From: a virus
Strand: one strand, 5' to 3'
IMG/VR virus record: IMGVR_UViG_3300044615_002187
Location: 1 to 36,458 of that record
DNA length: 36,458 nt
Below are positions 2,716-34,704 of the stretch, piece by piece. Every line of letters begins with the position of its first letter. The first letter of the stretch is position 1. The notes under the pieces were generated by a model. The model searched no databases. It saw nothing but the letters and a program-made list of their open reading frames with translations, and was not told the DNA's origin. The translations under genes and the position numbers were made by a program.

Positions 2716-3018
2716 ATGCCGCTTTCAGATTCAATTAAGCAGCGTTCGGCAGAAGCAGCAAATGCGCTGAAGCAGTTGCGTGAAGACTACCGCGACGTTC
2801 TAGTTGTTCTAGACGCCGTTACGATAGTTGACATATCGAAGCACGCAGTCGATTCAGACGAGCATGACGACATCTCGTACGACCTGGACGAGGATGAGCT
2901 GCGCGCAATTCTGTGGCACCTGGGCAAGCACGTAGGTAGTAATCAGACCAGTCAGGATCTGCTGCCGTCGATTGTTCGGTTCGCTATGGATGAGCACGAA
3001 CGTAAGCACGGCGCTTAA
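2716..3018 (+). CDS. Small acidic hypothetical protein (100 aa)
   Basis: A good Shine-Dalgarno (AGGAG at 2706-2710) stands at normal spacing before the ATG. The product has a charged N-terminal helix, then a strongly acidic middle (HAVDSDEHDDISYDLDEDELRAI) and an amphipathic C-terminal helix ending in EHERKHGA. No catalytic motif or membrane segment is visible. Small acidic phage proteins are often inhibitors or DNA mimics, but nothing here proves that. It lies between two co-directional genes in the left operon. The family is unrecognised. Confidence 0.7.
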   Translation: MPLSDSIKQRSAEAANALKQLREDYRDVLVVLDAVTIVDISKHAVDSDEHDDISYDLDEDELRAILWHLGKHVGSNQTSQDLLPSIVRFAMDEHERKHGA

Positions 3019-3040
3019 ATTCTCTCAACGCAGGACGCAC

Positions 3041-3607
3041 ATGTTTGTATTTATTGACACAGAGACCGGCGGCTTGACGACCGACTACAGCCTTCTGACA
3101 GTGGCTGCGGCCATTGCAGACGAGAAACTCAACGTTGTCGACACTGTTTGTTTTGGCGTCAAGCCGCCGCTTTATATCGTTAGCCCGGACGCTATGCGGG
3201 TAAACAAGATCAACCTGTCAGAACACGCAGCCACATCGATGTCTACTGAGCGGGCGTCAGAGGAGTTTGAGCATTTTCTGCAAAAAGGTATGCGGCACAA
3301 CGCTGATAAAAAGCTGATCCCGGTCGGGCATAACATCAACTTTGATCTCGGGTTTGTGTGGCACCAGCTGCTTCCAGAAGATCTGTGGCGGCAATACTGC
3401 ACATACCCAGCCATTGATACGGCCGGGCTAGCGCGGTTTTTTAGCGTGCTGAACAAGATCCCCGGCTTCTACAACCTCGTTGCGTTGCGGCAGCTGTTTC
3501 AAATCGAAACCGGGGAGGCGCACAACGCGATGGCCGACGTGCTGGCCACCGTAGCGCTGCTAAAGAAGTTCGTGGCTATTGCCAACGGCGAGCAAGTACT
3601 CGGGTAG
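3041..3607 (+). CDS. DnaQ-like DEDDh 3'-5' exonuclease
   Basis: The ATG at 3041 is chosen because AGGA lies 6 bases upstream and the DnaQ fold begins at once (FVFIDTETGG). The frame is open further upstream to 2972, but that part overlaps the previous gene and adds nothing. Exo I is D6/E8 in IDTET, Exo II is in GHNINFD and Exo III in AHNAMAD, giving the D-E-D-H-D set of the DEDDh family. The 188-residue length is typical of a stand-alone epsilon/RNase T type enzyme. Likely roles are proofreading, RNA or DNA end trimming, or nucleotide recycling. The family A polymerase in this window carries its own exonuclease domain, so this enzyme is probably not its proofreader. It lies directly before the tRNA gene. 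Confidence 0.85.
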   Translation: MFVFIDTETGGLTTDYSLLTVAAAIADEKLNVVDTVCFGVKPPLYIVSPDAMRVNKINLSEHAATSMSTERASEEFEHFLQKGMRHNADKKLIPVGHNINFDLGFVWHQLLPEDLWRQYCTYPAIDTAGLARFFSVLNKIPGFYNLVALRQLFQIETGEAHNAMADVLATVALLKKFVAIANGEQVLG

Positions 3608-3611
3608 TCAC

Positions 3612-3682
3612 TGCCCGATGGTGTAACGGTAGCACAAGGGATTTTGGTTCCCTTTGTCTAGGTTCGAATCCTAGTCGGGCAT
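3612..3682 (+). tRNA. tRNA-Gln (anticodon UUG)
   Basis: A full cloverleaf can be drawn. The 7-bp acceptor pairs 3612-3618 (TGCCCGA) with 3675-3681 (TCGGGCA). The D stem is 3621-3624 with 3632-3635 and its loop contains GG. The anticodon stem AGGGA/TCCCT (3637-3641, 3649-3653) holds loop TTTTGGT with anticodon TTG at 3644-3646. The T arm CTAGG-TTCGAAT-CCTAG spans 3658-3674. The U1-A72 end pair is a known feature of bacterial glutamine tRNAs. CCA is not encoded, so host CCA-adding enzyme would be needed. It is the only tRNA gene I can see in the window and stands at the edge of a GC-rich island. Confidence 0.95.
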
Positions 3683-5845: not shown

Positions 5846-6973
5846 ATGAAAAAGCTTTTTGTGTTTTGCGCCGACACGCATCTTGCTGACGGCGCTTGGA
5901 CTACCCGCCCAGGTATTTACGGCGACTCGTATTACAGTTTTGAACAGATCGTGTCTCATTGCATCGACAACGCGCTGCCCCTGATATTGGGCGGCGACGT
6001 GCTTGAAAAGAAGACAAACTCTGCCCGGCCTATTTCAATGCTGTGCCGGCAGATGTCCCGAATGGAATCCGCCGGTATCCCGGTGTACTACATTCAGGGC
6101 AACCACGAGTACGACCGAAATGCTCCGTGGCTGTCTGTGCATTCGTGGCCGCAGCATATGCACAACAAGCTGATCGATATCAACGGCGCCAAGGTATTTG
6201 GATTAGATTGGCTTCCAAAGGGGGACATTCAAAAAGCCCTTGCGGATACCCCGGCCGAAACCGACGTGTTAATTACACATCAGGTGTGGCACGATTTCAT
6301 GAAAAACGTTGGGAGGCCTGAGTGCGCCCTCTCCGATGTGCATCATGTCAAAGTTGTCTTGGCCGGCGATTTCCATGTGACAGAGACTGTAACCGGCGTA
6401 AATGCGCAGGGTCAGTCGGTTGTGATGCTGTCGCCCGGCTCGACCTGTATGCAGGACATCAGCGAAGCCGACGACAAGTATTTCTTTGTCATTGCCCGGC
6501 GGGACAACGGTGAACTGTACTGCAATAACCAGCAACTGCAGACTAGGCGGTTTACAAATTACACCGTGAAAGATGCTGAAACACTGGATCAGCTTTGCGC
6601 AGGCAAGCTGGCAGCAGATATCACCGAGCTGGCTAAAAACGCGCCAGAGCCAATTGCGAAGCCACTAGTTCGGATTAAATTCGACAAGCGGCTTCCCGAT
6701 GCATATCTACGTATTTCTACAGCGGTCGGCGAGCAGGCGCATCTGTTCTGCGACGCGATTGTGGACAAGTCTCGAGGTGAGACAGAAACAAATAGGACGG
6801 TTACCCGCAACGATTTAGTGGCCGTTGTCGGCGAGTTGCTGAAGGATAACCAACCGGCGCTCAAACTTGCTTTGGCATTGCTTCGGGCTGAAAACGCCGG
6901 ACCAGAGCTGGAGCAGCAGTTTGAGCAATTTCAGCTGCAACAGGAGCAATCAGATGCAGTTGCTACGTCTTGA
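5846..6973 (+). CDS. sbcD: SbcD/Mre11-like metallophosphoesterase nuclease subunit (T4 gp47-like)
   Basis: The five phosphoesterase motifs are in order: ADTHLAD (D10, H12), GGDVLE (D51), GNHEYD (N86, H87), LITHQVWH and AGDFHVTE. These bind the two Mn ions used for 3'-5' exonuclease and endonuclease action. At 375 residues the length is typical for SbcD or phage gp47. The C-terminal part ends in a Gln-rich helix (EQQFEQFQLQQEQ) that probably contacts the SbcC subunit. The stop overlaps the SbcC start by 20 bases, a classic arrangement for this complex. In T4-like phages the pair resects broken ends so that the recombinase can start recombination-dependent replication, and in many phages it also helps degrade host DNA. 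Confidence 0.93.
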   Translation: MKKLFVFCADTHLADGAWTTRPGIYGDSYYSFEQIVSHCIDNALPLILGGDVLEKKTNSARPISMLCRQMSRMESAGIPVYYIQGNHEYDRNAPWLSVHSWPQHMHNKLIDINGAKVFGLDWLPKGDIQKALADTPAETDVLITHQVWHDFMKNVGRPECALSDVHHVKVVLAGDFHVTETVTGVNAQGQSVVMLSPGSTCMQDISEADDKYFFVIARRDNGELYCNNQQLQTRRFTNYTVKDAETLDQLCAGKLAADITELAKNAPEPIAKPLVRIKFDKRLPDAYLRISTAVGEQAHLFCDAIVDKSRGETETNRTVTRNDLVAVVGELLKDNQPALKLALALLRAENAGPELEQQFEQFQLQQEQSDAVATS

Positions 6974-9080
6974 AGTTCGTAATTGGTGTCAACACAAGCA
7001 CCGTGTGTGTACATTCACACGCGGTCTTGTCGCTATTATTGGCCGTATTGGTTCAGGTAAATCAAACCTGCTGGGCGCTATCTGCTGGCTTTTGACCGGC
7101 GAGAATCCAAATGCCGGCGTAAAGGCCGACAACGTATCGCAGCTGTCCCCAGAGGGTGAAGCATCTCACGCCGTCCTCGAGTTTGAGCATGCCGGGCATT
7201 TGGTCGTCGTAACCCGCCACCTGCTTCCCGAGAAAGAGCCGTCTACGCTTGTGGTAGATGGCAACGAGGTAGCCCGCGGCGATAAAGCCGTTACAGCGTA
7301 TATTGAAAAGCTGCTCGGGATTGACAGCAAGTTCTTGTCTCGTTTTGTGATTGTGGCGCAGAACGAGATATTTGCGTTTATTGAGGACGGCGCAACTGAG
7401 GTAGATAAGTTCTTTCAAAAGCTGTTCGGTACGGCCAACGCTGAAAAATGCAATGACCTTATCGGCAAGCAATTGAACAAACTCGTCATTCCGGAAATTG
7501 TTGAAACGTCTGCGCAACTTGCGCCGGCGCTACCTGAAATAGACAAGAATTTGGCGCAGCTAACCGTGGAGATTGACGCGCTTCCTACGGTCGATCAGGT
7601 TCTGGCTACGCAGTTAGAGCAGCAGCGCGTGGCTTCTGACTGGCGTAAACGGCAGGAGTTGAGCCGCGGGTTGGCTGTCGTTGAGACGCAATTGGCGGAT
7701 AATTTAAAAACACAGGCGCAGTTGACCGAGGCCTGCGAGCAATACGCAGACGATATTTCTGCGTTAAAAGAAGCTATCGCTGGTAATGCGGATGCGCACA
7801 CAAATGCGCGTGTTGCTTTGAATCACCTGGCTACCTACAGGCAAATAGCCGCAGCTAGGGCAGTGTCCAAGGCTAGACTGCTTGAGATAGCGAAACTGAT
7901 AGAAGACAACCCGGAACTGGAAGCGCCGACAGAAGAAGAGCGGGCGGCTGTTATAGCAGCAGCATCCGCGGCCGAGGCTGAACTTAAGCGCGCGGAAACG
8001 TTCGTTAAAACATTTGCCGAGCACAAAATCGCAAATTGCCCGACGTGCAATACGCCTGTAGCGGACCTTACCGCGGAGCTTGAACGCGTGCAGCAGGCTA
8101 TTCCAGAGCTTACGGAAAAAATGGAAACAACGCGTAAAACAATGACGCGCGCTATATCCCAGATTTCGCGTAAAACTCAGTGGAGTATTGAAAATCAAAA
8201 ATTGCTATCTGAACAAGCACAGCTAACCGAGTCGCTGAAATCTTTTGGCGATATCTCTGCCCCGGAGCTAGGCGAAGAAGAGCTTGTACAGTTGATAGCC
8301 GACCACGAGGGCTTACAGAACGCGCAAGCCGAGATGGAGCCGATTGCGCAAAAAGCCAGAGAAAAATTGGCCGGAATTACGGGCATTATTAACACGCTAT
8401 TTGTTAACAAGCAAAAAATGCTTGACGACATAAGCGCGTTATCGGTAACCGCATCCGACGCCGACCTTGCCGAGCGCCTGCTGGAATCTTTACGGACACA
8501 GTGCGCACAACGACAGCAAAAAGAAGGCGTCAGAACACAGTTGAAGTTTGAGCGAGAAAAACTGTGCACGCGGATTGATGAGATCAGGGCAAATGAGCAA
8601 AAAGCAACAAAACTACGAGATTGGTCTGTAGTTGCTTCTGCGGCAAAAGATGCTTTAAAGACAGCGCCACGAATCGTAGCCACTCGAAATCTGCAGCGGC
8701 TTGAAATAGCGATAAACGAGTTGCTGCAGATTTTTGGCGTTGATTTCTTCGTTAAAGCGGCTACAGATGATTCGCCTACGTTTATAGCCGAATTCTTTGA
8801 CGGCCGAAAACAGCCGGCAAAGCGGTTGTCATACGGTCAAAAAACGGTGTTGGCGCTAGCGTTTCGTGTGGCTGTTAATGCCATGTTTGCTGAAGAGATT
8901 GGCTTGTTGGCGCTAGATGAGCCGACGGCTTACCTTGACCAGCAGCGAATAAAAGCTCTTGCGCCAGTGCTAGAAAAGCTGCGCGAACTTTCGACTGCTC
9001 GTGGGTTACAATGTCTACTGGTAACACACGAGACCAGCCTGGCTCATTTGTTTGAGTCGGCGGTCGAGCTTGATGCGTGA
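6954..9080 (+). CDS. sbcC: SbcC/Rad50-like SMC ATPase, DNA-end processing subunit (T4 gp46-like)
   Basis: The ATG at 6954 is preferred (GGAG 8 bases upstream, protein begins MQLLRLEVRNW as in the family); the frame extends to 6867 only as overlap with sbcD. Of 708 residues, the Walker A is GRIGSGKS (30-37). Long coiled-coil arms follow, with the zinc hook CPTC at 362-365 at the apex. Then come the signature LSYGQKT, Walker B LLALDEPT (D655, E656) and the H-loop VTHE. The head domains clamp DNA ends and drive the SbcD nuclease, while the zinc hook joins two molecules. All needed motifs are present, so it should be active. Confidence 0.93.
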   Translation: MQLLRLEVRNWCQHKHRVCTFTRGLVAIIGRIGSGKSNLLGAICWLLTGENPNAGVKADNVSQLSPEGEASHAVLEFEHAGHLVVVTRHLLPEKEPSTLVVDGNEVARGDKAVTAYIEKLLGIDSKFLSRFVIVAQNEIFAFIEDGATEVDKFFQKLFGTANAEKCNDLIGKQLNKLVIPEIVETSAQLAPALPEIDKNLAQLTVEIDALPTVDQVLATQLEQQRVASDWRKRQELSRGLAVVETQLADNLKTQAQLTEACEQYADDISALKEAIAGNADAHTNARVALNHLATYRQIAAARAVSKARLLEIAKLIEDNPELEAPTEEERAAVIAAASAAEAELKRAETFVKTFAEHKIANCPTCNTPVADLTAELERVQQAIPELTEKMETTRKTMTRAISQISRKTQWSIENQKLLSEQAQLTESLKSFGDISAPELGEEELVQLIADHEGLQNAQAEMEPIAQKAREKLAGITGIINTLFVNKQKMLDDISALSVTASDADLAERLLESLRTQCAQRQQKEGVRTQLKFEREKLCTRIDEIRANEQKATKLRDWSVVASAAKDALKTAPRIVATRNLQRLEIAINELLQIFGVDFFVKAATDDSPTFIAEFFDGRKQPAKRLSYGQKTVLALAFRVAVNAMFAEEIGLLALDEPTAYLDQQRIKALAPVLEKLRELSTARGLQCLLVTHETSLAHLFESAVELDA

Positions 9081-12046: not shown

Positions 12047-12749
12047 GGTAAATCCTCTACTAGCGCCTGATTGGTATAAGGAGCTTAGCCCGCCGCAGTT
12101 AATGGGCTATATCCGGCACTCGTATATCTGGCGAAGCACCGGCGTAACAAACTTATCCAGCCCCGATCAGGCGCGTAAAAACGTGCGCTGGGATGGCGGC
12201 GAGGATTCGTTTGGCTGTAAGTTTACGCCGGTTTGGCCGCGTATTTTGAAGATGATCAATTCGTATGACGCGGAGCCCGGAATCTGGGTTGCTGCGCACT
12301 TCTCGCCGCTGGCCCTTACAATGCGCGGCGACGGCAATGGGTCGTTTGAAATTAGCGAAATATCTCCGACGAGTCTTTGTAGCAAAACATCGGCAAAGCT
12401 TTATTACGACTTTTGTGATTACTTTCCAAAAGCAATCGCAGAAAGCTGTGATACGGCTATGAGGTCTGTTTTTCTACGCATAAAAAGTCTGTCAAAGCTA
12501 CCGCTGTCTCGTACTGCGCAATACGCTTGCGCTGTATCTGACGAGAGTCATGTTACGGCTTCGCCGCTGTTTCGGCACGCAATTGCGTCCAAGGCAGAAG
12601 CGATAGATGCTGCTGCAAAATATCTGTGGCCCGCTGCGTTCGACTATGAAGCGCAGCAACGCTTGTACGTTACCGTACCGGACTGGTGCCACACTAAAGA
12701 TTTAATGAATGCCGTATTGACAATTAGGACGCATTGGAGGCGCGCATGA
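12012..12749 (+). CDS. Unknown protein between SF2 helicase and replicative helicase (245 aa)
   Basis: The ATG at 12012 has GGGAG about 11 bases upstream and overlaps the helicase gene by 35 bases. The C-terminus overlaps the next start by 4 bases. The product contains several Trp (WYKEL, YIWRSTG, VRWDGG, FTPVWPRI) and ends in a helical basic tail (LTIRTHWRRA). No catalytic motif is visible. Tight linkage on both sides with helicase genes suggests a helicase loader or accessory factor, which is inference by position only. T4 gp59, the loader, is of similar size (about 217 residues), but I see no clear sequence resemblance. Confidence 0.75.
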   Translation: MTLSVAGETQNEVNPLLAPDWYKELSPPQLMGYIRHSYIWRSTGVTNLSSPDQARKNVRWDGGEDSFGCKFTPVWPRILKMINSYDAEPGIWVAAHFSPLALTMRGDGNGSFEISEISPTSLCSKTSAKLYYDFCDYFPKAIAESCDTAMRSVFLRIKSLSKLPLSRTAQYACAVSDESHVTASPLFRHAIASKAEAIDAAAKYLWPAAFDYEAQQRLYVTVPDWCHTKDLMNAVLTIRTHWRRA

Positions 12750-14452
12750 ATTACAAAGCAGACCGGCAACAAATAATCAATGAAAACCCAATAACTGCGC
12801 CCGAAATAGAGGCGATGCTGCGCGAATTCCTTCGGCAGCCGCGGCTCCTTAGCGAAGCTCGTCGGGCTGGTTTACAGCAAGAGCATTTTGCGGCCTCTCA
12901 GAGCGAATTGAAATATTACGCATTGTTTGGCGTAATGTGTCATCTCACTGATGAGTACGGCGCTATTACAAAGTCAATGCTCACGCATCAAATTGCTAGC
13001 ATTGCTGTAGCCAGCAACGGCGCGGGATCGATTATGCCGCTGGCTCCTGAAGACGTCTTGTTTCTCATAGGCGATGACGGACGTCGTGGTTTTATTGACG
13101 AAGCTTTTGATAGCCCGGCCCTTGACGACGAGAAACAACGTGCCGAGCGGTCCTTCTGCGAGAGCATTCTCAAACGCTTCCTCAATTCGCGTTTGATCAA
13201 GGATTCTTTGCAAGGCGCGCTTAATCAGTCTGCGTTAGATTCTGCTCCGGTCAACATGGATCAGTTGCTGGCGGACTATTGTAAAAAATCGCATCGTGTT
13301 CAACATGTCGGCGCTGTTATTGAAAACGCAGCCGCCATGCCCGACTTCGGTACGCCTATCAAGCTGCCTCCGGCGCCAGAACCCACAAATGTTCCGTGGA
13401 TTGACGGATTTATTGGCGGCATACGCCCGGGCGATCTCATTGGCTGCTTGGCGCCATTCGGTGGCGGCAAGACAACCATGTTAATTTCTGCAGCAGTACG
13501 GCTGGCAGAGTTGTATCAACTAACTGACCAGAACAAGCTAGCCGTATATATCGGTTTTGAGGACGCGGCTGACAAAACTATGCCGCTGTGCTGGTCCGCG
13601 GCATCACATATTGAACGCAAATTGTTCTCGCAGCGTGAAACAGACAAATTTTGGGAGCTGTTTTCTACGTCAGCTAGTCTTAAAGATTACGAGCTCAAGC
13701 TTCCTGAAAATCAGGATCCGTCCGTCAAACTCGGCGAACGCGAGCGGTGGTCTATTGCGCAGTCTTGGTACAACAAAAACTTCCTGTACGTCGACTACGG
13801 TTCCGGTAGCGACATGTCTAACCGTAAATTCGGCGGCCCGGAAGAACTGGCCGAAGCGCTCCAGCGTGTATGCGAAGAACGCAAATGTGAAATTGGTTTT
13901 GTGGCTATCGATTATGCAGCCAAGTTGATTGACCGTATGTTGGAAAACGAAAACTTTGCCACGGCAGCTAAATTGCAGGAATCGATGTGGCGTTTTCTAC
14001 GGTTGTTGCCGGATCAACTTCGAAGGCACATTGCAGATCCGTTTGGCGCCACGGTGCTTTTAGCTCATCAGCTGGCGCAGGGTGAAATCAAAAAATATCC
14101 GCCCAGCAAGTACATCCATCATCACGACGCGTCTATGGGCAAGAGTTTTGCAGAGAATTTGCATTCTTGCTTTTGTCTCGGCGTTCGAGATCCGGATTCT
14201 CACGTATCGACTATCAATTGGTCGAAGATTCGCTCTAGTCGTCCGTTGTCATCAACAGGCCTTGTGCGTATTAGTGATGATTGGGTAGATGTTGAGCTAG
14301 TAACCGAAAAATACACCGTGTGCCGCGGGTCCAAGAAAATCCTGTCGAAGGGTGATGTGCGACCGTTTAGCGGTGGTGGCGAGTTTGGTGGCCCGAAACA
14401 AAAACGCGACGCCGCCGACCTCATAGACAATTTTGATGAAAACTTCATCTGA
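12746..14452 (+). CDS. Replicative DNA helicase, DnaB-like RecA-fold ATPase
   Basis: ATG 12746 is preceded by GGAGG, so the upstream GTG-type extension to 12734 is discarded. Residues 1-200 form a helical N-terminal domain resembling the DnaB primase-interacting part. The ATPase core starts with GIRPGDLIGCLAPFGGGKTT (Walker A about 236-244). Walker B is VAIDYAAKL (D389), and VLLAHQL is the following sensor strand. It then carries the segment HDASMGKSFAENLHSCFCLGV in the place of the DnaB H4 region. The length (568) exceeds E. coli DnaB (471). It is followed directly by a primase and a polymerase, as expected for a phage replisome. Confidence 0.88.
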   Translation: MNYKADRQQIINENPITAPEIEAMLREFLRQPRLLSEARRAGLQQEHFAASQSELKYYALFGVMCHLTDEYGAITKSMLTHQIASIAVASNGAGSIMPLAPEDVLFLIGDDGRRGFIDEAFDSPALDDEKQRAERSFCESILKRFLNSRLIKDSLQGALNQSALDSAPVNMDQLLADYCKKSHRVQHVGAVIENAAAMPDFGTPIKLPPAPEPTNVPWIDGFIGGIRPGDLIGCLAPFGGGKTTMLISAAVRLAELYQLTDQNKLAVYIGFEDAADKTMPLCWSAASHIERKLFSQRETDKFWELFSTSASLKDYELKLPENQDPSVKLGERERWSIAQSWYNKNFLYVDYGSGSDMSNRKFGGPEELAEALQRVCEERKCEIGFVAIDYAAKLIDRMLENENFATAAKLQESMWRFLRLLPDQLRRHIADPFGATVLLAHQLAQGEIKKYPPSKYIHHHDASMGKSFAENLHSCFCLGVRDPDSHVSTINWSKIRSSRPLSSTGLVRISDDWVDVELVTEKYTVCRGSKKILSKGDVRPFSGGGEFGGPKQKRDAADLIDNFDENFI

Positions 14453-14460
14453 GGAGAGGT

Positions 14461-15501
14461 ATGTCGGAGCCGTTAAATCCTATTCTGTACAGATTGTTAC
14501 ATCAAAAATTCGGCGAAATTAAAATTGCAAATGAAGGTTGTCACGCTTATTTTCAGCGCATGCATAACCCTTTCAATTCTAGTAGAGCAGTTCTACGGGC
14601 ATCGGCTTGGGGGGAGTATTATTGTGTGCGCTGTCCGTTTTGCAATGACCATAGTCCTCGTTTGTGGATTAATCATCGGTATGCATCTGAAGTAGAAAAT
14701 GGGCGTAGGCAGCTCACGCATCTTGCCGTTTGCTACAACAATCAATGCCTGCGAGAGCCCGGCCGACTGGAGCAGCTCGAGCAGATAATATTTGGCATGG
14801 GCGGGCATTTAAAAGCCCGACCAATGACCATACGGCCGGTCACCAGCACGTTTAAGCCCACAGTGGTAGCGCCGCCGGGCGAGATATTGCCGCTTCGTGA
14901 CCTGCCAAAGACTCACGAGGCGCGGGCGTATATCAAATCCCGCGGCTTTGACCCTGATTGGCTGTCTGACAATTTCCAAGTCGGGCTTTGCGTAACTGCG
15001 GCTGAGCCGAAATTTGAGGTCATGAAAAACCGGCTGTATATCCCGGTGACTTTTCGTAATGACCTTGTCGGTTGGCAGTGCCGCGCCATTGGGCCGTCGA
15101 AGGCCGGTAAATATCTCAACGCGCCAAACATGCACAAATCTGCGTTTTTGTACAACTTCGACAAAGCGGAAAAGCAGCCGTTTGTCGTAGTCGTTGAGGG
15201 CGTGACGAGTGTGTGGCGTCTTGGCGGTGGCGCTGTTTGTTTATTCGGTAAAAGCATGTCAATGACGCAGCAAACTCTTATATCTAGAACATGGGCTGGC
15301 AAGCCTGTGTTTCTATTGCTCGACAACGACGCTAGACCTGAAATGGAGAAAGCCAAAATAGCTCTGACGCAGAGTGGCATGAAGGTCGTAACGATTGAGC
15401 TGCCAGACGCCCGCGATCCGGCTGACTACTCACTCGATGCGATTACCGATCTTTTAATGGATCGAGCCACCGCTGCTGGTGTTATCAACGCAATGATTTG
15501 A
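14461..15501 (+). CDS. DnaG-type DNA primase (zinc ribbon plus TOPRIM)
   Basis: GAGGAGAGG lies directly before the ATG. A zinc-binding region is seen at the N-terminus (CVRCPFC at 55-61, with C91 and C96), fitting the template-recognition ribbon. The TOPRIM fold follows, with FVVVVEG (E246) and LLLDNDA (D288, D290) as metal ligands and RDPADYS behind. The 346 residues are short compared with bacterial DnaG but usual for phage primases. It synthesises RNA primers on the lagging strand together with the helicase encoded 8 bases upstream. Confidence 0.87.
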   Translation: MSEPLNPILYRLLHQKFGEIKIANEGCHAYFQRMHNPFNSSRAVLRASAWGEYYCVRCPFCNDHSPRLWINHRYASEVENGRRQLTHLAVCYNNQCLREPGRLEQLEQIIFGMGGHLKARPMTIRPVTSTFKPTVVAPPGEILPLRDLPKTHEARAYIKSRGFDPDWLSDNFQVGLCVTAAEPKFEVMKNRLYIPVTFRNDLVGWQCRAIGPSKAGKYLNAPNMHKSAFLYNFDKAEKQPFVVVVEGVTSVWRLGGGAVCLFGKSMSMTQQTLISRTWAGKPVFLLLDNDARPEMEKAKIALTQSGMKVVTIELPDARDPADYSLDAITDLLMDRATAAGVINAMI

Positions 15502-15513
15502 GGAGCAAATCAG

Positions 15514-18500
15514 ATGAGCCTGAAGCATCTTTTCTCGGAAGCATTAACTGACCCGTCTCGGCGCGAAGCCGTAATGCAGCTGTATCCAGCTGTAGATTTT
15601 GATGCCCCGGGAATGCCGCCGCCGGGGCCAGACTTTGTAAAACACGCCATCGACCTCGGCGACGGTATAGATGAATCGGAGCTCAAGAAAAAGAAACAGC
15701 TGCCGATTAACAAGGAGCTAGATTACAAAAATCTGGATTACTTGTACCGGCAAGCTATGTATGAGCCATCGTTCTCGATAAAGGTGGCTAGCAAGCGCGG
15801 TACGTTTGATTCGCAGTGGCTGCCGGGTCACATAATTGGCGACATGTCCTCGGACGATCCGATAGTACACGGTCCAAAGCCCGCTAAGGTCATGCTTGTT
15901 GGCAAGATGCCGGGGCCGGATAACATCAAAAGCCGTGATGCGATGGCGAGCCGCGGAATGCAGCCATTTATTGCGGCCATGCACGAGGCCGGAGTATCTC
16001 ACAAAGAGTACGCAAAGTGGTACGTGACGTTTGCGTGTAAATTCACCTCCGGCGACGCTGAGAATGAAACTATTCAGGCGTCGTGGCTCAAGGACTGCGC
16101 GCCTATACTGGCGCAAGAACTTCGGCTTGTAAAACCGGATTACATTCTTTGTTTTGGCGCAGATGCTGTTAAAGCTGTTTTGGGTTCTAGCGTAAAATTA
16201 AACGGCCGCGTGGTTACTTTAAAGGTGCCAATGCCAGACGGTTCCGAGCATGAAATTCAAGTCATGTCTTCGTTACATCCGGCGTTTGTCGCGATGAAAT
16301 CCGACGCCGCTGTAAATGTTGAATTTGGCGATCAAATAAAACGTTTCGTTGCGCTGGTTAATGGCGTGTCAGTAGCTAAAGAAGTTGTGGATCATGCCGA
16401 GGTATACACGGAAGATGCGTTACGTGAAATTGTAGACGCGATGATTGCTGACCCAGATCCCAACGCAAACATTATCGCGTTGGACTGTGAGTGGCACGGC
16501 GAGTACCCGACTGAGCCAGGAGCGTATTTGCGCACGATCCAGTTGTCTAATAAAGACAAATGGGCGCGGACAGTTGTGCTTCGTTACGAAAGTGGCGCAG
16601 AGGCGTTTCGGCCAAATCTAGACGCGGCACGTAAACAGCTTTTACGGTTGCTGAAAAGCACAGATAAGCGGCACGTGCGGGTTGGCGGGCACTTTCTCAG
16701 AGCTGATCTTCCGTGGCTCATTGATTTTGGCGTCGACGTACGTGACGAGTACGCCCCAGATCCGGATGTAAATGAACGGACAAAGGGCGGCTGGGATACG
16801 AGCCTGCTGTATCACGCGTATAACGAGACGGCTAAATATGCGTTGGACGACTGCGTTATGCGATTCACATCTGCGCCGACTTATTGGGAGCGGCTGTATA
16901 GCTGGAAAAAGAGCTATTGCGGTTTGCAGAAAATTAAACCAGATCAGCTGGGCGGATACGGTGAGTGCCCGAGCCACGTGCTACATCCGTACGCCAATTA
17001 CGACGTAGATGTCACGCGGCGTATTATGATGCATTTTTACGGCACAAACGGGCACAACGGGCATGTTGCTTGTGACGCCAACGGTAATGACTGCTGGCTT
17101 CCGTATTGGACAGCGCATCGGGCATCGTTAGCGTTTCTTGAAATGGAAATGACAGGACTCGTTATCGATAAAGATCGAACTGACGAGCTTACGAACTTGT
17201 TTATGGCGGAGCAGGAAAAACTTTTGGCTGAGGTGCGGTCCGAGCTAAACTGGCCTGACTTCAATCCTAAGTCGCATCCGCAGTTGGCTATTGCGCTATT
17301 CGGGCGTAAATTCGCAAAGAACTTTACCAATGCGGTTACTATTCCTGATGACGCAAATCTTTTAAATCTGACGCCGGTCAAAACAACCGGTAAGCGCCCG
17401 AAGCTGTGGCGCGAAATTGATGACGCCGCACGGAAAAAATCTCCGCCAAGTACGGACAAGGAAAGTCTTGGTATTTTGGGGCACGCAAATGCCACAGCGG
17501 CCAAAATACGCGATTACAAATTCATTGCGCAGGTACTACAATCCGTGCTGCGCGTACCCAACGTTACGGATGACGGAGCATTTGAAACAGATGAGAACGG
17601 CAATTACTCGTATGAAAAAGGCCTTGTTGGCAGCGTGCACGCCGACGGTAAGGTACGCACTCACTTGTTTCAGACAAAAGAAACCGGCCGCGCGTCCAGC
17701 TCCCGGCCGCCATTACAGAACCTCAGCTCGAAGCGCGAAGACGACTACCGTAGAATTCTCGGCAGCTCGTACACACATCCGGTCCGCTCGGTACTTAAAG
17801 TCCCGGATGGGTGCGTTGGGATCGAGACCGACCTCACTGGTGCGGAACTGGCGGTACTAGCTTGGTTGTCGCAAGATCGGAATATGATTGATCATGTCCG
17901 GCGTAACAATTTGCCGGAAGATCACCCAGACCATTACGACATCCACTCGAGGCAGGCGGTTAAAACTTTTGCATTGTCAGGGGTTGAGCCGACAAAGACC
18001 GGCATGAAAAACGCCGGCAAAAAAGGTTTACGTGTAGCTGCTAAAAATGTGAATTTCGGTATTCCGTATGGACGCGGTGCCGAAGCTATTGCACGGCAGT
18101 GTAAAGAAGAAGGTGTCGACGTCACGGCAGCCGAGTGCCAGGCGATGATCGATGCCTACTTTGACTCGTATCCAGGGACGTACGAATTCCTGGAAGCGTG
18201 TAAAGAACGGTCGCAGAAGCCGGGCTGGATCGTAGGCCCGTATGGCCGTATGCGACGCTTTACGCGGCCGTTTGACAATGATCGCGCCACTATTGCCGAG
18301 CAGCAGCGGCAGGCGCAAAACTTCCCGATTCAGGGCGGAGTTGCCGACGCTGTTTCGATAGCGTTGGCTAACTTCATGAAATATCGAAATGACCACCCAG
18401 AAATTCAATACGATATTGCGCTTCAAATACATGACGCAATTGTTCTTATCGCGCCTATCGAGCATGCCGAGATTGTGTACAAGGAAGTCGTTCCGAAGTG

Positions 18501-18666
18501 CATGATTGATGAAGTTCCGTTTTGGCCGCGTTTTTTGGACGGGCGACCGATACCTGTTCCAGAGCCGTATCATTTCGGCGCTTCACGCGAAGTCTTTGTG
18601 CACTGGGGCGAACCACTTAAGCCCAAAGACGCTGCAAAAATCGGCATGGATTGGCTCGAAGAGTAG
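15514..18666 (+). CDS. Family A DNA polymerase with N-terminal uracil-DNA-glycosylase-like domain
   Basis: A 1050-residue fusion. Residues about 122-285 resemble family 4 UDG (VGKMPG 129-134, C175 and C195, FGADAVKAVLG, SLHPA 253-257). The 3'-5' exonuclease domain shows D324/E326, D398 and YANYD (493-497). The polymerase domain spans about 540-1040: TGRASS, motif A D773 with E778, motif B R840-K844-F848-Y852, and motif C LQIHDA with D974. In the UDG part the Glu of the usual GEAPG is replaced (GKMPG) and the N-terminal Cys pair of the iron-sulphur cluster is absent, so glycosylase activity is doubtful. Motif C has Ala where Glu is usual (HDA, not HDE). Residues 1-120 are unassigned. It is the likely replicative polymerase of the phage. 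Confidence 0.92.
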   Translation: MSLKHLFSEALTDPSRREAVMQLYPAVDFDAPGMPPPGPDFVKHAIDLGDGIDESELKKKKQLPINKELDYKNLDYLYRQAMYEPSFSIKVASKRGTFDSQWLPGHIIGDMSSDDPIVHGPKPAKVMLVGKMPGPDNIKSRDAMASRGMQPFIAAMHEAGVSHKEYAKWYVTFACKFTSGDAENETIQASWLKDCAPILAQELRLVKPDYILCFGADAVKAVLGSSVKLNGRVVTLKVPMPDGSEHEIQVMSSLHPAFVAMKSDAAVNVEFGDQIKRFVALVNGVSVAKEVVDHAEVYTEDALREIVDAMIADPDPNANIIALDCEWHGEYPTEPGAYLRTIQLSNKDKWARTVVLRYESGAEAFRPNLDAARKQLLRLLKSTDKRHVRVGGHFLRADLPWLIDFGVDVRDEYAPDPDVNERTKGGWDTSLLYHAYNETAKYALDDCVMRFTSAPTYWERLYSWKKSYCGLQKIKPDQLGGYGECPSHVLHPYANYDVDVTRRIMMHFYGTNGHNGHVACDANGNDCWLPYWTAHRASLAFLEMEMTGLVIDKDRTDELTNLFMAEQEKLLAEVRSELNWPDFNPKSHPQLAIALFGRKFAKNFTNAVTIPDDANLLNLTPVKTTGKRPKLWREIDDAARKKSPPSTDKESLGILGHANATAAKIRDYKFIAQVLQSVLRVPNVTDDGAFETDENGNYSYEKGLVGSVHADGKVRTHLFQTKETGRASSSRPPLQNLSSKREDDYRRILGSSYTHPVRSVLKVPDGCVGIETDLTGAELAVLAWLSQDRNMIDHVRRNNLPEDHPDHYDIHSRQAVKTFALSGVEPTKTGMKNAGKKGLRVAAKNVNFGIPYGRGAEAIARQCKEEGVDVTAAECQAMIDAYFDSYPGTYEFLEACKERSQKPGWIVGPYGRMRRFTRPFDNDRATIAEQQRQAQNFPIQGGVADAVSIALANFMKYRNDHPEIQYDIALQIHDAIVLIAPIEHAEIVYKEVVPKCMIDEVPFWPRFLDGRPIPVPEPYHFGASREVFVHWGEPLKPKDAAKIGMDWLEE

Positions 18667-18669
18667 GTC

Positions 18670-18697
18670 TGGACTTCTGATTTCTGTGTGGTAGAGT
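18670..18697 (+). promoter_or_regulatory. Possible sigma70-type promoter before the 457-aa protein
   Basis: TGGACT (18670-18675) and TAGAGT (18692-18697) are separated by 16 bases, with a TG one base before the second box like an extended -10. It lies in the only sizeable gap (72 bases) of the replication region and before a gene that has its own terminator. Boxes are imperfect and phage promoters may differ. Confidence 0.3.
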
Positions 18698-18738
18698 ACC
18701 TCTGTTGGTTGGTTTTTTCACTTCAAGGGTTTTTTTCT

Positions 18739-20112
18739 ATGGCACGTTTTCCTGGTCAGAATCTTGCTTCCTTTGGTACGCCGCAACAGGCAAATGGTGG
18801 AGATGGCAAGAGACGCTTTTGTTACGGTAAGCAGCGGAATGTTGTTATTGTCGGCGGTAAGAAAATGCTGGACGAGGGCCTGTGCCTTCGTCTTCTGCCG
18901 ACGTATGTGAGTGATCAGAGTGGTCGTCCGGTTATCGGCGCAGGCGGTGCTCCTGTGCTGAGCACCTTCCGCGAGGACGGCGGCTTTGGTGACTGGTCAC
19001 GCACGTACGAGTGCGTGTCGTGGTTCGGCCAGCCGGGTCTGCACTTCATTGTGTGGGACGGTAATCCGGCCGTTAATCGTTACGAGAGTCCGGTATGGCT
19101 GCTTTATCGGGCGGCTTACAAGAACAAGGAAACGCCGAATGTCGGCCCCTTGTTCTGTGATCTGCTTAATCGCGCAGCTGGCTTTCAGCAGCAGACGCAT
19201 GTCGGTTCGCTGAAGCGTCCTGAGCAGATTCTGTTCGTGAGTGCGACGCAGCTTTACAACAAGCCTGATCGCACTCCTGGATTTGGCTGCCTCGACTTGG
19301 CTGATCAGAAGGAAAACAACGCGCGTATCTTCGGATTTAAGAAGACCGCGGCTGAAAGCCTTCTGAATGCGCTTCAGGTTCAGGGTGCCGACGGGCAGTA
19401 TTTGTGCGGCGACATGCTGAGCTCTGGGCCGGCGAAGCTCGTAACCGTCATCTCGAAGTCCTACGGCGTAACGGCGCATCCCAAGCCGCCGCGACCGTTG
19501 GCCGTTTCGAGTGCGGGGCCTGATTATTTGTATGTGCCGCCGTACGCCATCGCTGCCAATAATCCGGCAGAGACGGTTGTCGTCGGCAAGCCCAATCCGT
19601 CGCCAGACGGTAAGATGTCCGGCGAACAGCACTGGGTCGTGTTGCACGACACGTACAACGGCAACACTGTGCCGTTCGGTAATTACGAGAAAAAGATTGC
19701 AACGGCTAACTGCACGTTCGATGAAATGATGCACGTGCCCAGTTTCGAAGAGCAGGCTGATCTGATGGCTGATTCGTTTCCTCGCGAAGCTCTCGACTTC
19801 GCTTGGCGTGATCATCCGGAGTATCTCCGGTATCTGCGTCGCGGTACCACAACAGTGGAAGCACCGCGTACGCAGTTTCAGCCACAGCAGGCGTTCACGC
19901 CGCCTACGGGCGTGCCGCAAGCTGTAGCTGCAGCGGCGTCTGTTCAAGCAGCTGCAGTGCCGGAGGAAATTGATCCGGAAATGGAAGCGGCGTTTTCGCA
20001 GCTGCAGGGCGGTGTAAAACCAGCGGCGGCGCAACGTGCTACGAACGACATCGTGGCCGAGGCGCGAGCTCGCGCGCAGGCTGCCATGCAGGCTGGTCGT
20101 CGTAACGGCTGA
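18739..20112 (+). CDS. Abundant-looking protein next to UvsX; candidate ssDNA-binding protein
   Basis: ATG 18739 is taken (AAGGG about 11 bases upstream); the frame to 18688 only adds leader-like sequence. The 457-residue product has a globular part to about 375 and an Ala/Gln/Pro-rich tail (QPQQAFTPPTG, Ala-rich, ending in a helical ARARAQAAMQAGRRNG). The codons are strongly biased to CGT, GGT and CTG/CTT, as expected for high expression, and the gene is bounded by a possible promoter and a strong terminator. Phage ssDNA-binding proteins are abundant and lie beside recombinase genes, and the segment NNARIFGFKKTAAESLLNAL loosely recalls gp32-type proteins. There is no acidic tail and no zinc site, so this is inference only. 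Confidence 0.78.
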   Translation: MARFPGQNLASFGTPQQANGGDGKRRFCYGKQRNVVIVGGKKMLDEGLCLRLLPTYVSDQSGRPVIGAGGAPVLSTFREDGGFGDWSRTYECVSWFGQPGLHFIVWDGNPAVNRYESPVWLLYRAAYKNKETPNVGPLFCDLLNRAAGFQQQTHVGSLKRPEQILFVSATQLYNKPDRTPGFGCLDLADQKENNARIFGFKKTAAESLLNALQVQGADGQYLCGDMLSSGPAKLVTVISKSYGVTAHPKPPRPLAVSSAGPDYLYVPPYAIAANNPAETVVVGKPNPSPDGKMSGEQHWVVLHDTYNGNTVPFGNYEKKIATANCTFDEMMHVPSFEEQADLMADSFPREALDFAWRDHPEYLRYLRRGTTTVEAPRTQFQPQQAFTPPTGVPQAVAAAASVQAAAVPEEIDPEMEAAFSQLQGGVKPAAAQRATNDIVAEARARAQAAMQAGRRNG

Positions 20113-20191: not shown

Positions 20192-21562
20192 ATGGCTCGA
20201 CGTAAGAAATCTGATTTTGAAGCGCCGGTTGATCTGACAAGTCATCCGGGCGAACACCCTGTGATTACTGAGATTCTCAAGGCTACTGCGGAAGAAAACG
20301 ATCCGCTTATCGGTCTGCCTTTGCCGGCTTTGTCTGCACGGTATTTGCTGCAAAGCAATATCTTCCCGCTGTCGCGGTTCACCCAGCTTCGCGGCGAGTT
20401 TAGTGCTGGTAAGTCAGCCATGCTAGTTGAGATCATGCGCTGGTTTACGATCTATGGCGGCGGCGGTGTCATGATTGACACGGAGAACAAAGGCAGCCGC
20501 AGCATGATCGACGGCCTGTTCGGGCACAATCCCGAATACATGAAGCGCGCTGTTGTTGTAAAAGCGGCCAGCGTCGAGGAGTGGCAGAAGAAGTACATCA
20601 GTCTTTGCCAGCTTATTCACAAGCAAGCTGACAATGGCGGCGATGTTTATCCGATGTGCATCGGCGTCGATTCGATTAGCGCTGTCGAGGTCGAGCGCCG
20701 CGTTGAAAAGGTGGCGGACGAGGGTCATGCTGCTGCAGGCCATCCGTATTTGGCTCGCAATCTTTCTGATTTTATGCGTACGGCGTTAATTCCTACGCTT
20801 CGGCACTATCCGATTGCTTTCGTGGCGACAAACCACTTGAAAGAAGAAATCAATCAGATGGGTTTCGGTGCGCCAAAGAAGTACGCACCCGGCGGCGCGA
20901 GCTTGGATTATTACCCGACGTTGATTATCGACATGGAGCGCGTGTCGAAAAAGCTGGTCGAAAAGAACGGCCAGGAAGGTCAGCAAGTCCGCATGATCGC
21001 GACCAAGAACAATCTTGGCGCTCCTGGCCGGCGTGTAATTGTTAATTTGATGTGGTATCCGAAAACTATCACATATGTCGACGAGACCAACGAAAAGCGG
21101 TACAAGACGCAGCAGCATCATTTCTGGGACTGGCATACGGCCACGACGAGGCTGCTTCTTGACTTGCAGGATCCAGAGCGTAAGCCGCAACCAGGCCACG
21201 ATCCGAAGCTTGCAGAAATCATGAAGCAGGTTTGCGACCTCGAGTACAAGCACGGCACAAAAAATCAGGACGTGCCGCTTGTTTATTCAAACGCGCTGGG
21301 CATTTCCAAGCAGGATGCCGTTCCTGAGGTGGAAATCTCAATGATGATCGAAGAAAACAAGAAGGTGTGCGGGTTGCTGCACGGGCTTCTTGGCATTAAT
21401 GAGTACGCTGTCTGCGATCCTGCTGTTAAATATCGCGAGCAGGTGATTGCACACATGAAAGAACAGCAGACGACTGACAATCCAGAGCTCATGGCAGCTT
21501 CTGGTTCTTTGGACGATATTCTTTCAAACGAGCTCGATCCCCTTGGGCAGTTTTCGGAGTAA
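20192..21562 (+). CDS. uvsX: UvsX/RecA-like recombinase
   Basis: GAGG stands before the ATG. The 456-residue protein has Walker A GEFSAGKS (68-75), the strand-ending MIDTENK segment (94-100), Walker B MCIGVDS (D160) and a sensor strand VATNHL. The DNA-loop region follows with APKKYAPGGASLDYYPTLI, the part corresponding to RecA L2/GGxALKFYAS. UvsX/RecA forms filaments on ssDNA and performs strand exchange, feeding ends made by SbcCD into D-loops. T4 UvsX has about 391 residues, so the present protein has an extra C-terminal region (about 345-456) of unknown function ending in acidic SGSLDDILSNELDPLGQ. Confidence 0.9.
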   Translation: MARRKKSDFEAPVDLTSHPGEHPVITEILKATAEENDPLIGLPLPALSARYLLQSNIFPLSRFTQLRGEFSAGKSAMLVEIMRWFTIYGGGGVMIDTENKGSRSMIDGLFGHNPEYMKRAVVVKAASVEEWQKKYISLCQLIHKQADNGGDVYPMCIGVDSISAVEVERRVEKVADEGHAAAGHPYLARNLSDFMRTALIPTLRHYPIAFVATNHLKEEINQMGFGAPKKYAPGGASLDYYPTLIIDMERVSKKLVEKNGQEGQQVRMIATKNNLGAPGRRVIVNLMWYPKTITYVDETNEKRYKTQQHHFWDWHTATTRLLLDLQDPERKPQPGHDPKLAEIMKQVCDLEYKHGTKNQDVPLVYSNALGISKQDAVPEVEISMMIEENKKVCGLLHGLLGINEYAVCDPAVKYREQVIAHMKEQQTTDNPELMAASGSLDDILSNELDPLGQFSE

Positions 21563-22147: not shown

Positions 22148-23299
22148 ATGCGGTCGTTTAAAAAACAACGCAGCATCTTCGTGCCGGTCACGGCGCTTTC
22201 TTTCGCGCAATCTCAAGAGCAGGATTGCGTAGATTTAATTGCTCGGCGTAGCGCCAACACCGAGCTTGTACCGCTATCCGACGTAGAGCAGTTAACGCTG
22301 ACCGCGGCTGGCAAACTGGTAGAGAACGGCTACAGGTTCAACATACTTGGGTTCATGGCTGTGTGTGACGCCATTGTGCCTGGGCTTCATCGCGTGTTCA
22401 GCGAGTTGTCCGGTGAGTCGCCGTCCAAGTTATTGGATGTAGACGCATATAACCTGCCAGCCGCGGTCAGCATATATAACGAAGCATTACGCGTACGGTT
22501 TGAGAGCATGCGGGAACGGAGTTTGCTAGTAGATCACAGTAGCCGCATAGTGGACGGGTTTCTCGGACTAAACCACAAGCTCCTCGACAATGCTGTCTTT
22601 CTTGAGGTTATCCAGAATGCCCGGGCTGCCCGATCTGACGAGACAAATTTCTATCGGGCAGAGCTTGTAGGCCGCGAGCTGCGGGTGTATATTCTCGACC
22701 CGGCTACGCGGCGCACGGACATACATCCAAACTCTGAGCATGTATTTGCGTCAGGGTGGTACTTCTGCAACCGCGAAGACTCGGGAAATTCTGTGCGGGC
22801 TATCCCGTGTCTATACACACGATTTGGCGTAGCAATTCGTCTCGAGAAGTCGAAGAATCGGCTAGCGCACGTTGGCACAGATCTAACCGGTAGAGCGGAG
22901 CGACTGGTCAGCCGAATATTTAGTCAGGCGATCGACATGGAGGTCGTAGCGCGGCGAGTGGCCATGCTGACGGCATTCAAGCTTGGCTTTACAGATAAAA
23001 AACCAGAGTTCGATGCCGTAGTTAAAAAGTGGACAACATATCTTGTGAGCTTTGGGCTGTCTAAAGATATTGCCAAAACAATCGTGCGTAATGCTGCTGT
23101 TGTTGGCGCAGACACAGAGCCGCGAAACCCGTTAGACATATTTACAGACAAAGTACTTGTTGAGCGGAGCGGCTATGACCTGGTTTGTTCTGTTTTAAAG
23201 CACGCTAGGAACCAGCCGACACACGTCAGAGAAAATATTCAAACCGTCGGCCTGTCTCTTCTATTGCCGACGACTAAAAAACAGTTTGGTAGTGTTTGA
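22148..23299 (+). CDS. DUF932-like phage/plasmid protein
   Basis: 383 residues. The pattern of the DUF932 family can be followed: a segment DHSSRIVDGFLGLNHKLLDNA (129-149) in the place of the usual SDRY...LDN part, then GWYFCNREDSGNSVRAIPCLYTRFGVAI (203-230) in the place of SNSEVG...RLVC(T)NG, then HVG at 241-243. DUF932 proteins are widespread in phages and plasmids without a settled function. The match is by eye and the key residues differ, so the call is tentative. There is no clear Shine-Dalgarno before the ATG, and the start could be slightly further downstream. It precedes another family frequent in mobile elements. Confidence 0.72.
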   Translation: MRSFKKQRSIFVPVTALSFAQSQEQDCVDLIARRSANTELVPLSDVEQLTLTAAGKLVENGYRFNILGFMAVCDAIVPGLHRVFSELSGESPSKLLDVDAYNLPAAVSIYNEALRVRFESMRERSLLVDHSSRIVDGFLGLNHKLLDNAVFLEVIQNARAARSDETNFYRAELVGRELRVYILDPATRRTDIHPNSEHVFASGWYFCNREDSGNSVRAIPCLYTRFGVAIRLEKSKNRLAHVGTDLTGRAERLVSRIFSQAIDMEVVARRVAMLTAFKLGFTDKKPEFDAVVKKWTTYLVSFGLSKDIAKTIVRNAAVVGADTEPRNPLDIFTDKVLVERSGYDLVCSVLKHARNQPTHVRENIQTVGLSLLLPTTKKQFGSV

Positions 23300-32772: not shown

Positions 32773-34704
32773 GTGGCTTATCTAAGCTCAAACAATTTCG
32801 CCACTTCCGGCCCTGGCGTATCGGCGGATGACCGGTTCCCGGATCCGTTTTGCGACATCGCGTCTTTGTCGATGCCTGAGTCTATTCAGGCTGCGCTGCG
32901 CTGGTGCGAATTCATCATGAACTGCAATGGCCTGTATCGCCAGGCTATTGACCGCGTCGTGTCGTACTTCCTGACAGACGTAGAGGTAAACGAAGACGGT
33001 AAAAACGAACTCGGTAACGAAGAAAAAGAAAAGTACCTCGAGTTCTTCGAAAATACGCTGGGGATTAAAAACGTTCTGCACTCTGTTGCCATGGATTATC
33101 TGACTTACGGCAACAGCTTCACGAGCGTGCTTGTTCCATTTAAGCGGTATCTGTCTTGCAAAAAGTGCGGTCTGGAGATGCCGCTCTCGCAGGTTTTCAA
33201 CAAACCAGCCTGCGCTTTTAAGTGGCAGGACTTCGAGTTTTACGCCACCTGTCCGCAATGCCACTATTCTGGCGCCTGGAACCACATCGACCGCCGCAGT
33301 GGCGATGCCAGCGATCTGAAGGTAAAGCGTTGGAACCCGCACGAGATGGAACTTATTTGGGACCCGTATACAGATGAGGTCCGATATGTGTGGCGCATCT
33401 CTGAGGAATATCGCGCGCTTATCCGGCAAGGCCATCTGCACCACCTCGAGCGCGCTAGCTGGGAAGTTATTCAGGCTGTCAAATCGAATCAAAATTTGAT
33501 GTTCGACAAAGACGTGATTTTCCATCTCAAGGAAGACGCGCTAGCTGGTTTGCGTAATCGCGGTTGGGGCATTTCTAGGATTCTGGCAAACTTCCGCCAG
33601 GCCTGGTATGTCCAGATTCTTATGCGCTACAACGAAGCAGTAGCGCTTGATTACGTGATTCCGTTCCGCGTAATCACGCCCGCTCCTCGCGGCGGCGATT
33701 CGGCGTCTAGCGATCCGGTGCATACGATTAATCTCAGCAACTTTACAGGCCGTGTTCAGGCCATGCTCCGGGCGCGTCGTCTGGACCCCGCGCGCTGGAA
33801 CGTACTTCCGTTTCCTGTGAACTACCAAGCACTCGGCGGCGATGCGTCGCAGCTTGCCCCGAAAGACTTGCTCGATCAGGGCTTTGATACATTACTGAAA
33901 TGTATCGGTATGCCGGTTGAGTTATTCAATGGCAGTTTAACTCTGCAGGCTGCTCCGGCAGCTCTTCGGCTATTCGAAGCTAACTGGGCGCATTTGCCGC
34001 ACAATCTTAATCGCTTTCTAGATCACGTAGCGTCGTCTGTGGCAAAGATCAAGTCTTGGGAACCGGCATCTGTAAAGCTGATGCGCGTCACGCACGCGGA
34101 CGACCTCAACAGGCAGATGGCGAAGCTGCAGCTGATGATGGGGCAGCAGATCAGCAAGAGCACGGGGCTCAAATCCGTCGGGCTGGATTACGACGAAGAG
34201 ACAAAGCGCATGCTCGAGGAAGAAAAGATCTACGCCGAAGAACAGAGCAAGATGCAGCGCGAGATGGAACAGGCGCAACAAATGGATGCGCTGTCCGAGT
34301 CTGCTGGCCCAGGCGCTGGCGGTATGGGTATGCCCGGCGCAAGCGCTACTGGCATGCCGCAGGGCGCCGCCCCGCAGCAAGGCGCTATGCCGCCTCCGGG
34401 GCCGCCAGCAAACCCTGTCGATCAGTTTCTCATGCAGCGGCAAAACACGCCGAACGTACCGAGAACGCCAGAAGAGCTGCAATCTCAGGCGCAGTTGCTT
34501 GCACAACAACTGCTGTCTCTGCCTGAGTCTGTAAAGGATAGCCAGCTTATTAAGCTCAAAAAGACAGATCCGACCATGCACGCGCTTGTTAAAAGCGTCA
34601 TCGACGATATTCGACAAGATGCGCAAGTCCAGGGTGGTGCGCAGCTGCTTGCGCAGCAGTACGGCCAGCCGGCTGGTGGTCAAGCTCCGCTCCCGCCAGG
34701 CTAA
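32773..34704 (+). CDS. Phage portal protein with inserted zinc-ribbon
   Basis: GTG start. The 643-residue protein has typical portal features: an early helical stretch RWCEFIMNCNGLYRQAIDRVVSYFLTDV, then DYLTYGNSFTSVLVPF, WNPHEMELIWDPYTDEVRYVW, VIFHLKEDALAGLRNRGWGISRILANFRQAWYVQIL (clip-region helices) and LYNGSL-like GMPVELFNGSLTLQAAPAALRLFEANW. CKKC (129-132) and CPQC (160-163) make a small zinc ribbon within the N-terminal wing. The last 160 residues hold a helical crown and a Gly/Pro/Met-rich tail. It forms the dodecameric DNA channel at the head vertex. Terminase is not in the window. Confidence 0.88.
   Translation: MAYLSSNNFATSGPGVSADDRFPDPFCDIASLSMPESIQAALRWCEFIMNCNGLYRQAIDRVVSYFLTDVEVNEDGKNELGNEEKEKYLEFFENTLGIKNVLHSVAMDYLTYGNSFTSVLVPFKRYLSCKKCGLEMPLSQVFNKPACAFKWQDFEFYATCPQCHYSGAWNHIDRRSGDASDLKVKRWNPHEMELIWDPYTDEVRYVWRISEEYRALIRQGHLHHLERASWEVIQAVKSNQNLMFDKDVIFHLKEDALAGLRNRGWGISRILANFRQAWYVQILMRYNEAVALDYVIPFRVITPAPRGGDSASSDPVHTINLSNFTGRVQAMLRARRLDPARWNVLPFPVNYQALGGDASQLAPKDLLDQGFDTLLKCIGMPVELFNGSLTLQAAPAALRLFEANWAHLPHNLNRFLDHVASSVAKIKSWEPASVKLMRVTHADDLNRQMAKLQLMMGQQISKSTGLKSVGLDYDEETKRMLEEEKIYAEEQSKMQREMEQAQQMDALSESAGPGAGGMGMPGASATGMPQGAAPQQGAMPPPGPPANPVDQFLMQRQNTPNVPRTPEELQSQAQLLAQQLLSLPESVKDSQLIKLKKTDPTMHALVKSVIDDIRQDAQVQGGAQLLAQQYGQPAGGQAPLPPG

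Follow-up and report, generated by a model that had tools for sequence, protein, structure and literature searches.

The window analysed here, i.e., the whole stretch of 36,458 bases making up the viral record, harbors an ORF encoding a 1050-residue protein in which a uracil-DNA glycosylase (UDG)-like domain, a 3'-5' exonuclease and a family A DNA polymerase are fused (Table 1). The gene lies in a replication block that also encodes a primase, a helicase and a recombinase. Three large ORFs in or near this block (18688-20112, 22148-23299 and 32773-34704, all on the + strand) have no Pfam match, and the first two have no PHROG match either. Elsewhere in the window, a PfkB kinase fused to a cytidylyltransferase (963-2465, +) resembles the bifunctional HldE of ADP-heptose synthesis, and a glycosyltransferase-like gene is located at 34720-35760. 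Genes for a calcineurin-like phosphoesterase and, after it, an SMC/SbcC-like ATPase (an SbcD/SbcC pair) occupy 5846-9080 (+), and a tRNA-Gln (TTG, 3612-3682, +) adjoins a DnaQ-like exonuclease gene (2972-3607).

Table 1. Replication genes of the window, domains of the polymerase fusion and residues of its UDG-like domain.
Feature	Position	Strand	Evidence
DnaB-like replicative helicase	12734-14452	+	phrog_19, E 1e-9
DNA primase (DnaG-like), directly upstream of the fusion	14461-15501	+	phrog_47, E 2e-38; PF08275
UDG-like / 3'-5' exonuclease / family A DNA polymerase fusion, 1050 aa	15514-18666	+	ORF; Pfam, PHROG phrog_17 and NCBIfam matches
N-terminal extension, residues 1-110	15514-15843	+	alignment; AF2 secondary structure; ~43% median identity to relatives
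UDG-like domain, residues ~119-285	15868-16368	+	PF03167; UdgX/family 4 profile match, E 3e-16; Foldseek
Motif A GKMPG, residues 130-134 (Lys131 at 15904-15906, replacing Glu of GE(A/G)PG)	15901-15915	+	alignment
Met144, Phe position of PFVG	15943-15945	+	alignment
Phe173, uracil-binding Asn position (TNxxK)	16030-16032	+	alignment; Asn role from PMC10359453
Cys175-Lys176-Phe177 (Phe177 at the canonical Cys3 position)	16036-16044	+	alignment
Cys195 (Cys4), sole residue at a cluster-ligand position	16096-16098	+	alignment
Motif B His255-Pro256 (SLHPA, 253-257); Arg of HPxxxxR is Met261	16276-16281	+	alignment
3'-5' exonuclease domain, residues 293-510	16390-17043	+	PF01612, E 1.7e-4, just under cut-off; invariant columns
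Polymerase domain, residues 641-997	17434-18504	+	PF00476, E 3e-44; invariant columns
UvsX/RecA-like recombinase, downstream of the fusion	20192-21562	+	phrog_97, E 5e-30

The phrog_17 match covers residues 113-1015 of the fusion. Its polymerase domain reaches 151.8 bits against DNA_pol_A, and residues D773, E778, R840, K844, H973 and D974 are invariant in an alignment of 26 sequences; motifs A, B and C of family A polymerases are present with their catalytic Asp (D773), Lys (K844) and His-Asp pair (H973-D974). The match to DNA_pol_A_exo1 (residues 299-505) falls just below the cut-off (21.9 versus 23.6 bits), and D324, E326, D398, Y493 and D497, invariant in the same alignment, form the D-x-E, D, Y-x3-D set of DEDD exonucleases. 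The UDG-like domain is hence followed by a DEDDy-type proofreading exonuclease and a complete polymerase, which is probably replicative. It is preceded by a helical extension, conserved in the clade (PGMPPPGxDF...LYRxALY), which stands where family 4 UDGs have their Cys1/Cys2 region. A model of the full-length protein (pLDDT 83, pTM 0.69) retrieves only PolA-type structures among the 50 Foldseek matches listed.

Residues 119-263 match the UDG superfamily (PF03167) with 49.7 bits (cut-off 24.3, E 5e-13). The AlphaFold2 model of residues 1-295, built from 43 relatives, reaches a pLDDT of 90.5 and a pTM of 0.90, and a Foldseek search of the PDB with this model returns UdgX and family 4 UDGs with E values of 2.4e-10 to 2e-8, the best matches being UdgX and the Tth, T. 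maritima and S. tokodaii UDGs, each with a probability of 1.00. Searching with a profile built from 27 relatives likewise gives crystal structures of UdgX and family 4 UDGs, at E values of 3e-16 to 2.5e-14. Profiles and predicted structure thus identify residues ~119-285 as a family 4-like UDG domain by descent. That a UDG-like domain is fused here to a family A polymerase had been proposed from the letters of the DNA, and both the profile search and the structure prediction bear it out. The fusion nevertheless misses the NCBIfam cut-offs of family 4 (TIGR00758, 33.6 versus 125.3 bits; NF040953, 27 versus 250 bits) and of UdgX (TIGR03914, 43.3 versus 189.95 bits). The window domain shares its fold with M. 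smegmatis UdgX and family 4 UDGs (Tth, 1ui0), but differs from them in having neither the GEQPG nor the GE(A/G)PG form of motif A, nor the 4Fe-4S set, nor the R-loop KRRIH. A reading as a UdgX-like crosslinker was ruled out on the absence of the R-loop His.

The reference for the residue register was a Moorella phage protein, a family 4 UDG that is both free-standing and intact (CQRC, GEGPG, PFVG, YITNTVKC, EAC, HPAYLLR), and most residue losses were read from a single multiple alignment. At motif A, the Glu of family 4 is replaced by Lys131, as the sequence-only reading had pointed out. Met144 occupies the PFVG Phe position, which we take to be the uracil-stacking site. Phe173 stands in place of the uracil-binding Asn. 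Lys176 of the same TNxxK motif is retained as in the Moorella phage enzyme, and the segment FGADAVKAVLG follows at residues 214-224. In motif B, the His-Pro pair is retained while the Arg is lost. With these three residues replaced (Asn, the stacking Phe and the Arg of motif B), the known contacts for specific uracil binding are gone. In the case of UdgX, activation of the nucleophile (His109, whose place is taken by water when it is mutated) falls to the Glu of motif A; uracil is held by Asn91 and His178, Arg184 aids substrate binding, and E52 mutants lose activity (PMC10359453). Out of this set (Glu, His109, Asn91, His178, Arg184), the window domain keeps only the His178-type His.

The 4Fe-4S cluster has fared no better. 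Cys1 and Cys2 are not present in the window protein, in agreement with the earlier observation on its first 130 residues. The Cys pair 175/195, also assigned to the cluster at that stage, holds for Cys195 and not for Cys175: the latter lies two residues upstream of the Cys3 position (TNxxKCRP), where family 4 has a Val. With Cys195 as the one ligand of four in register, the description "half an iron-sulphur cluster" overstates what is left, and the invariance of Cys195 is presumably due to packing. With Glu changed to Lys, the cluster not intact and the pocket residues replaced, the earlier proposal of a non-catalytic domain appears well supported by the alignment, and base excision by this domain seems very unlikely. 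What is new here is how the active site changed; the fusion itself is already known from SPO1, PaBG, SP-15 and others.

Scans of viral contigs yielded 37 loci with the full protein and 65 with the alignment, largely overlapping, and a single locus with the domain alone. Many of these loci sit on contigs of 180-205 kb, the size of jumbo-phage genomes. A tree of the exonuclease-polymerase part places the relatives together in a single group (support 0.81), separate from other fused polymerases. Lys131 is found in all 26 aligned full-length relatives, encoded by both AAA and AAG. In a set of 43 domains reaching down to 22% domain identity, at least 90% have it, the exception seen being a Tyr in L096. 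A Lys at motif A also occurs in Streptomyces phage KimJongPhill (GKFPP), on a separate branch of the tree. K131, T172, K176, C195 and P256 are invariant in the 26 sequences, down to 39% full-length identity. Other pocket positions vary: position 144 is T, V, I, L, W or M, the uracil Asn position is mostly F, H, Y, S, A or C, and the motif B His is changed to Asn or Ser in several relatives, with L044, L070, L082, L089, L092 and L096 replacing this His and keeping the domain.

The relatives share a median of 43% identity with the window in the UDG-like part versus 73-75% in exonuclease and polymerase, the UDG-like and N-terminal parts being the fastest evolving regions of the fusion. In three close pairs with unsaturated dS, the dN/dS of the UDG-like domain is 0.16, 0.09 and 0.03, versus 0.01-0.07 for the polymerase, and in most pairs it is a few times the polymerase value. 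The domain is hence under purifying selection, but a looser one than the polymerase. It was found in all 20 relatives' records searched, and in each it is the sole UDG-family match over cut-off.

Many fused UDG-like polymerases of named phages adjoin genes for thymidylate synthase, a pyrimidine hydroxymethylase or dCMP deaminase. For the window, a link to modified pyrimidines was dropped: among the 20 records, which may be incomplete, those of the 15 closer relatives have no match to thymidylate synthase (PF00303), ThyX (PF02511) or dUTPase (PF00692). In the records of the five distant relatives, the ThyX and dUTPase families both find a match (one dUTPase match scoring below cut-off); four of these relatives (L077, L078, L086 and L037/L095) keep the uracil Asn. 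This is suggestive of uracil handling having been retained in distant relatives and dropped in the lineage of the window, in few data that are confounded with descent. To note, the polymerases of L103 (5001-9602) and L037/L095 carry an insert of ~430-500 residues at polymerase motif B, after the equivalent of residue ~844 (RNAAK followed by CVVEGTRLHTSQGMLLI). This insert resembles an intein and is missing from the window polymerase. The polymerase frame of L086 ends soon after the equivalent of residue 853 while tblastn homology runs on to 1045, due to a frameshift, an intron or a sequencing error.

The explanation we favor, with moderate confidence, is that the domain has been repurposed and now serves the polymerase as an accessory module with no enzymatic role. 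A family 4-like UDG, a DNA-scanning fold, would have become joined to the replicative family A polymerase of a phage. After this fusion, its glycosylase chemistry, its recognition of uracil and its Fe-S cluster would have been lost, DNA or partner contacts being kept while the chemistry decayed. Most likely, the module would hold template/primer DNA or a replisome partner, resulting in higher processivity or in positioning of the fork, in the manner of the poxvirus processivity UDG. The UDG fold, the residue losses (Glu of motif A, Asn and stacking Phe of the uracil pocket, Arg of motif B and all but one of the four cluster Cys), the invariant residues, the presence of the domain in every record searched, its low dN/dS and the replication-gene context all argue for such a module, as do, by analogy, the decay in other phage polymerases, PaBG and the poxvirus precedent. 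Family 5 UDGs have a GLAPG-type motif A, so the Glu is not essential in every UDG family, and this counts against it. Furthermore, the UDG-like domain has a computed pI of ~7.0 and a net charge of ~0, and a general grip on DNA is not evident for a domain devoid of net positive charge. As its dN/dS exceeds that of the polymerase in most pairs, partial decay without function is also possible.

This rapid evolution and the neutral charge would also fit a structural relic that has ceased to contact DNA and persists solely because the fold of the polymerase, its N-terminus or the packing of the exonuclease requires it. We regard this as unlikely, though worth serious consideration: the invariant K131, T172, K176, C195 and P256 belong to the ancestral pocket or its neighborhood. 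Such conservation, together with the fixation of the derived residue K131, suggests that more than bulk folding is at stake. The sequence-only reading had favored a uracil or DNA sensor. A DNA sensor, taken loosely as a module that touches DNA or the replisome, may still hold. For uracil, a device stalling the polymerase at template uracil or a deaminated base would agree with the UDG ancestry, with the retention of His255 in the window and with the Asn kept in four of the five distant relatives that have ThyX and dUTPase families. Such a sensor is improbable here, as the base-contacting Asn, stacking Phe and Arg are replaced (F173, M144, M261) and the possibly incomplete records of the close relatives, devoid of dUTPase, ThyX and thymidylate synthase, give no sign of special uracil handling. 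There is a slim chance that Lys131 represents a gained function, the invariant Lys131 and Lys176 of the old pocket engaging an abasic site, a phosphate or another DNA feature; if so, this pocket would be a lesion or fork sensor inside the replicative polymerase of a whole jumbo-phage clade. An active glycosylase or lyase of changed chemistry, in which Lys131, nearly universal in the clade at the catalytic Glu position, would be the nucleophile or His255 would suffice, as UDG families differ in motif A, is hardly credible given that the base-binding residues are not conserved, that the six clade members named above retain the domain with the His replaced, and that E52 mutants of UdgX are inactive.

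The accessory module finds its closest comparisons among other phage polymerases. In Bacillus phage SPO1 gp31 ("SPO1 DNA polymerase-related protein"), whose fusion had been named as a precedent, a UDG-fold domain likewise precedes exonuclease and PolA in one protein, the cluster Cys are absent and the HP motif is kept. It departs from the window protein at motif A, which is still acidic in gp31 (QENPF), and in lacking the 110-residue N-terminal extension; SPO1 is an hmU-DNA phage with a dUMP hydroxymethylase gene beside gp31, a counterpart of which was not found in the clade of the window. The same UDG / exonuclease / PolA layout has been published for gp205 of the jumbo Pseudomonas phage PaBG, the UDG domain being discussed as able to remove uracil (PMC7412058). 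This role appears doubtful from our alignment, in which gp205 (L127, 15605-18703) is degenerate too, with no GExPG, HP or cluster Cys. It differs from the window domain in its motif A (LDYVP, not GKxPG), shares 22% identity with the window over part of the polymerase, and its phage carries its own thymidylate synthase.

In 16 other PolA fusions of named phages, sampled in one alignment, the full signature (Glu, Asn, His, four Cys) is present in four, namely ctfzr933, Caudoviricetes vir526, Rhizobium RHph_TM39 and Brevundimonas StAshley. As in the window, their UDG is N-terminal to, or encoded just before, PolA; with all four Cys, Glu, Asn and HP present, in contrast to the window, these domains may be active. 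In RHph_TM39 (L115, 2266-5235), the UDG-bearing and polymerase parts are two adjacent genes. The cluster Cys are kept with an altered motif A in PMBT14, Yersinia P744 and LysYB1, and little of the signature is left in SPO1, Exiguobacterium 132, Vibrio R01 and Microbacterium Huwbert. Decay of the signature thus appears common among phage PolA fusions. Bacillus phage SP-15 (L117) has two UDG domains: one is free-standing, family 4-like and intact (1863-2441), the other is degenerate and forms part of its polymerase (from 7965). Phage family C polymerases, too, can carry a UDG-like domain, at their C-terminus, as in DNA polymerase III alpha of Pseudomonas phage Nican01 (L118, 1127-4519) and Rhizobium phage B1VFA (L125, 1085-4453), where the motifs are altered too; this C-terminal layout has already been described for some bacterial DnaE-type proteins (PMC3919608). 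The UDG-like domain of the window also has a weak profile match to residues 7-168 and 8-174 of the 1142-aa PDB entry 9qhs_A ("Putative DNA-directed DNA polymerase I"), which is too distant for direct transfer.

UDG-like domains of phage polymerases are commonly annotated as uracil repair enzymes, as in the above discussion of PaBG. The domain described here has lost nearly every residue for seeing or cutting uracil, and a whole group of large phages has kept it. The comparison of signature residues suggests that many such domains are no uracil repair enzymes, and it raises a general, testable question: what benefit does a dead glycosylase bring to a replicase? In poxviruses, a UDG (E4/D4) belongs to the factor that makes the polymerase processive (PMC10115419). 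The resemblance is a functional analogy only, since D4/E4 is a separate subunit, acting with A20/A22 and a family B polymerase, but in both cases, if our proposal holds, a UDG fold serves the replicative polymerase and not repair. The phage sequences suggest that, in parallel to this poxvirus system, the UDG fold may have turned into a non-catalytic part of the polymerase in several phage lineages.
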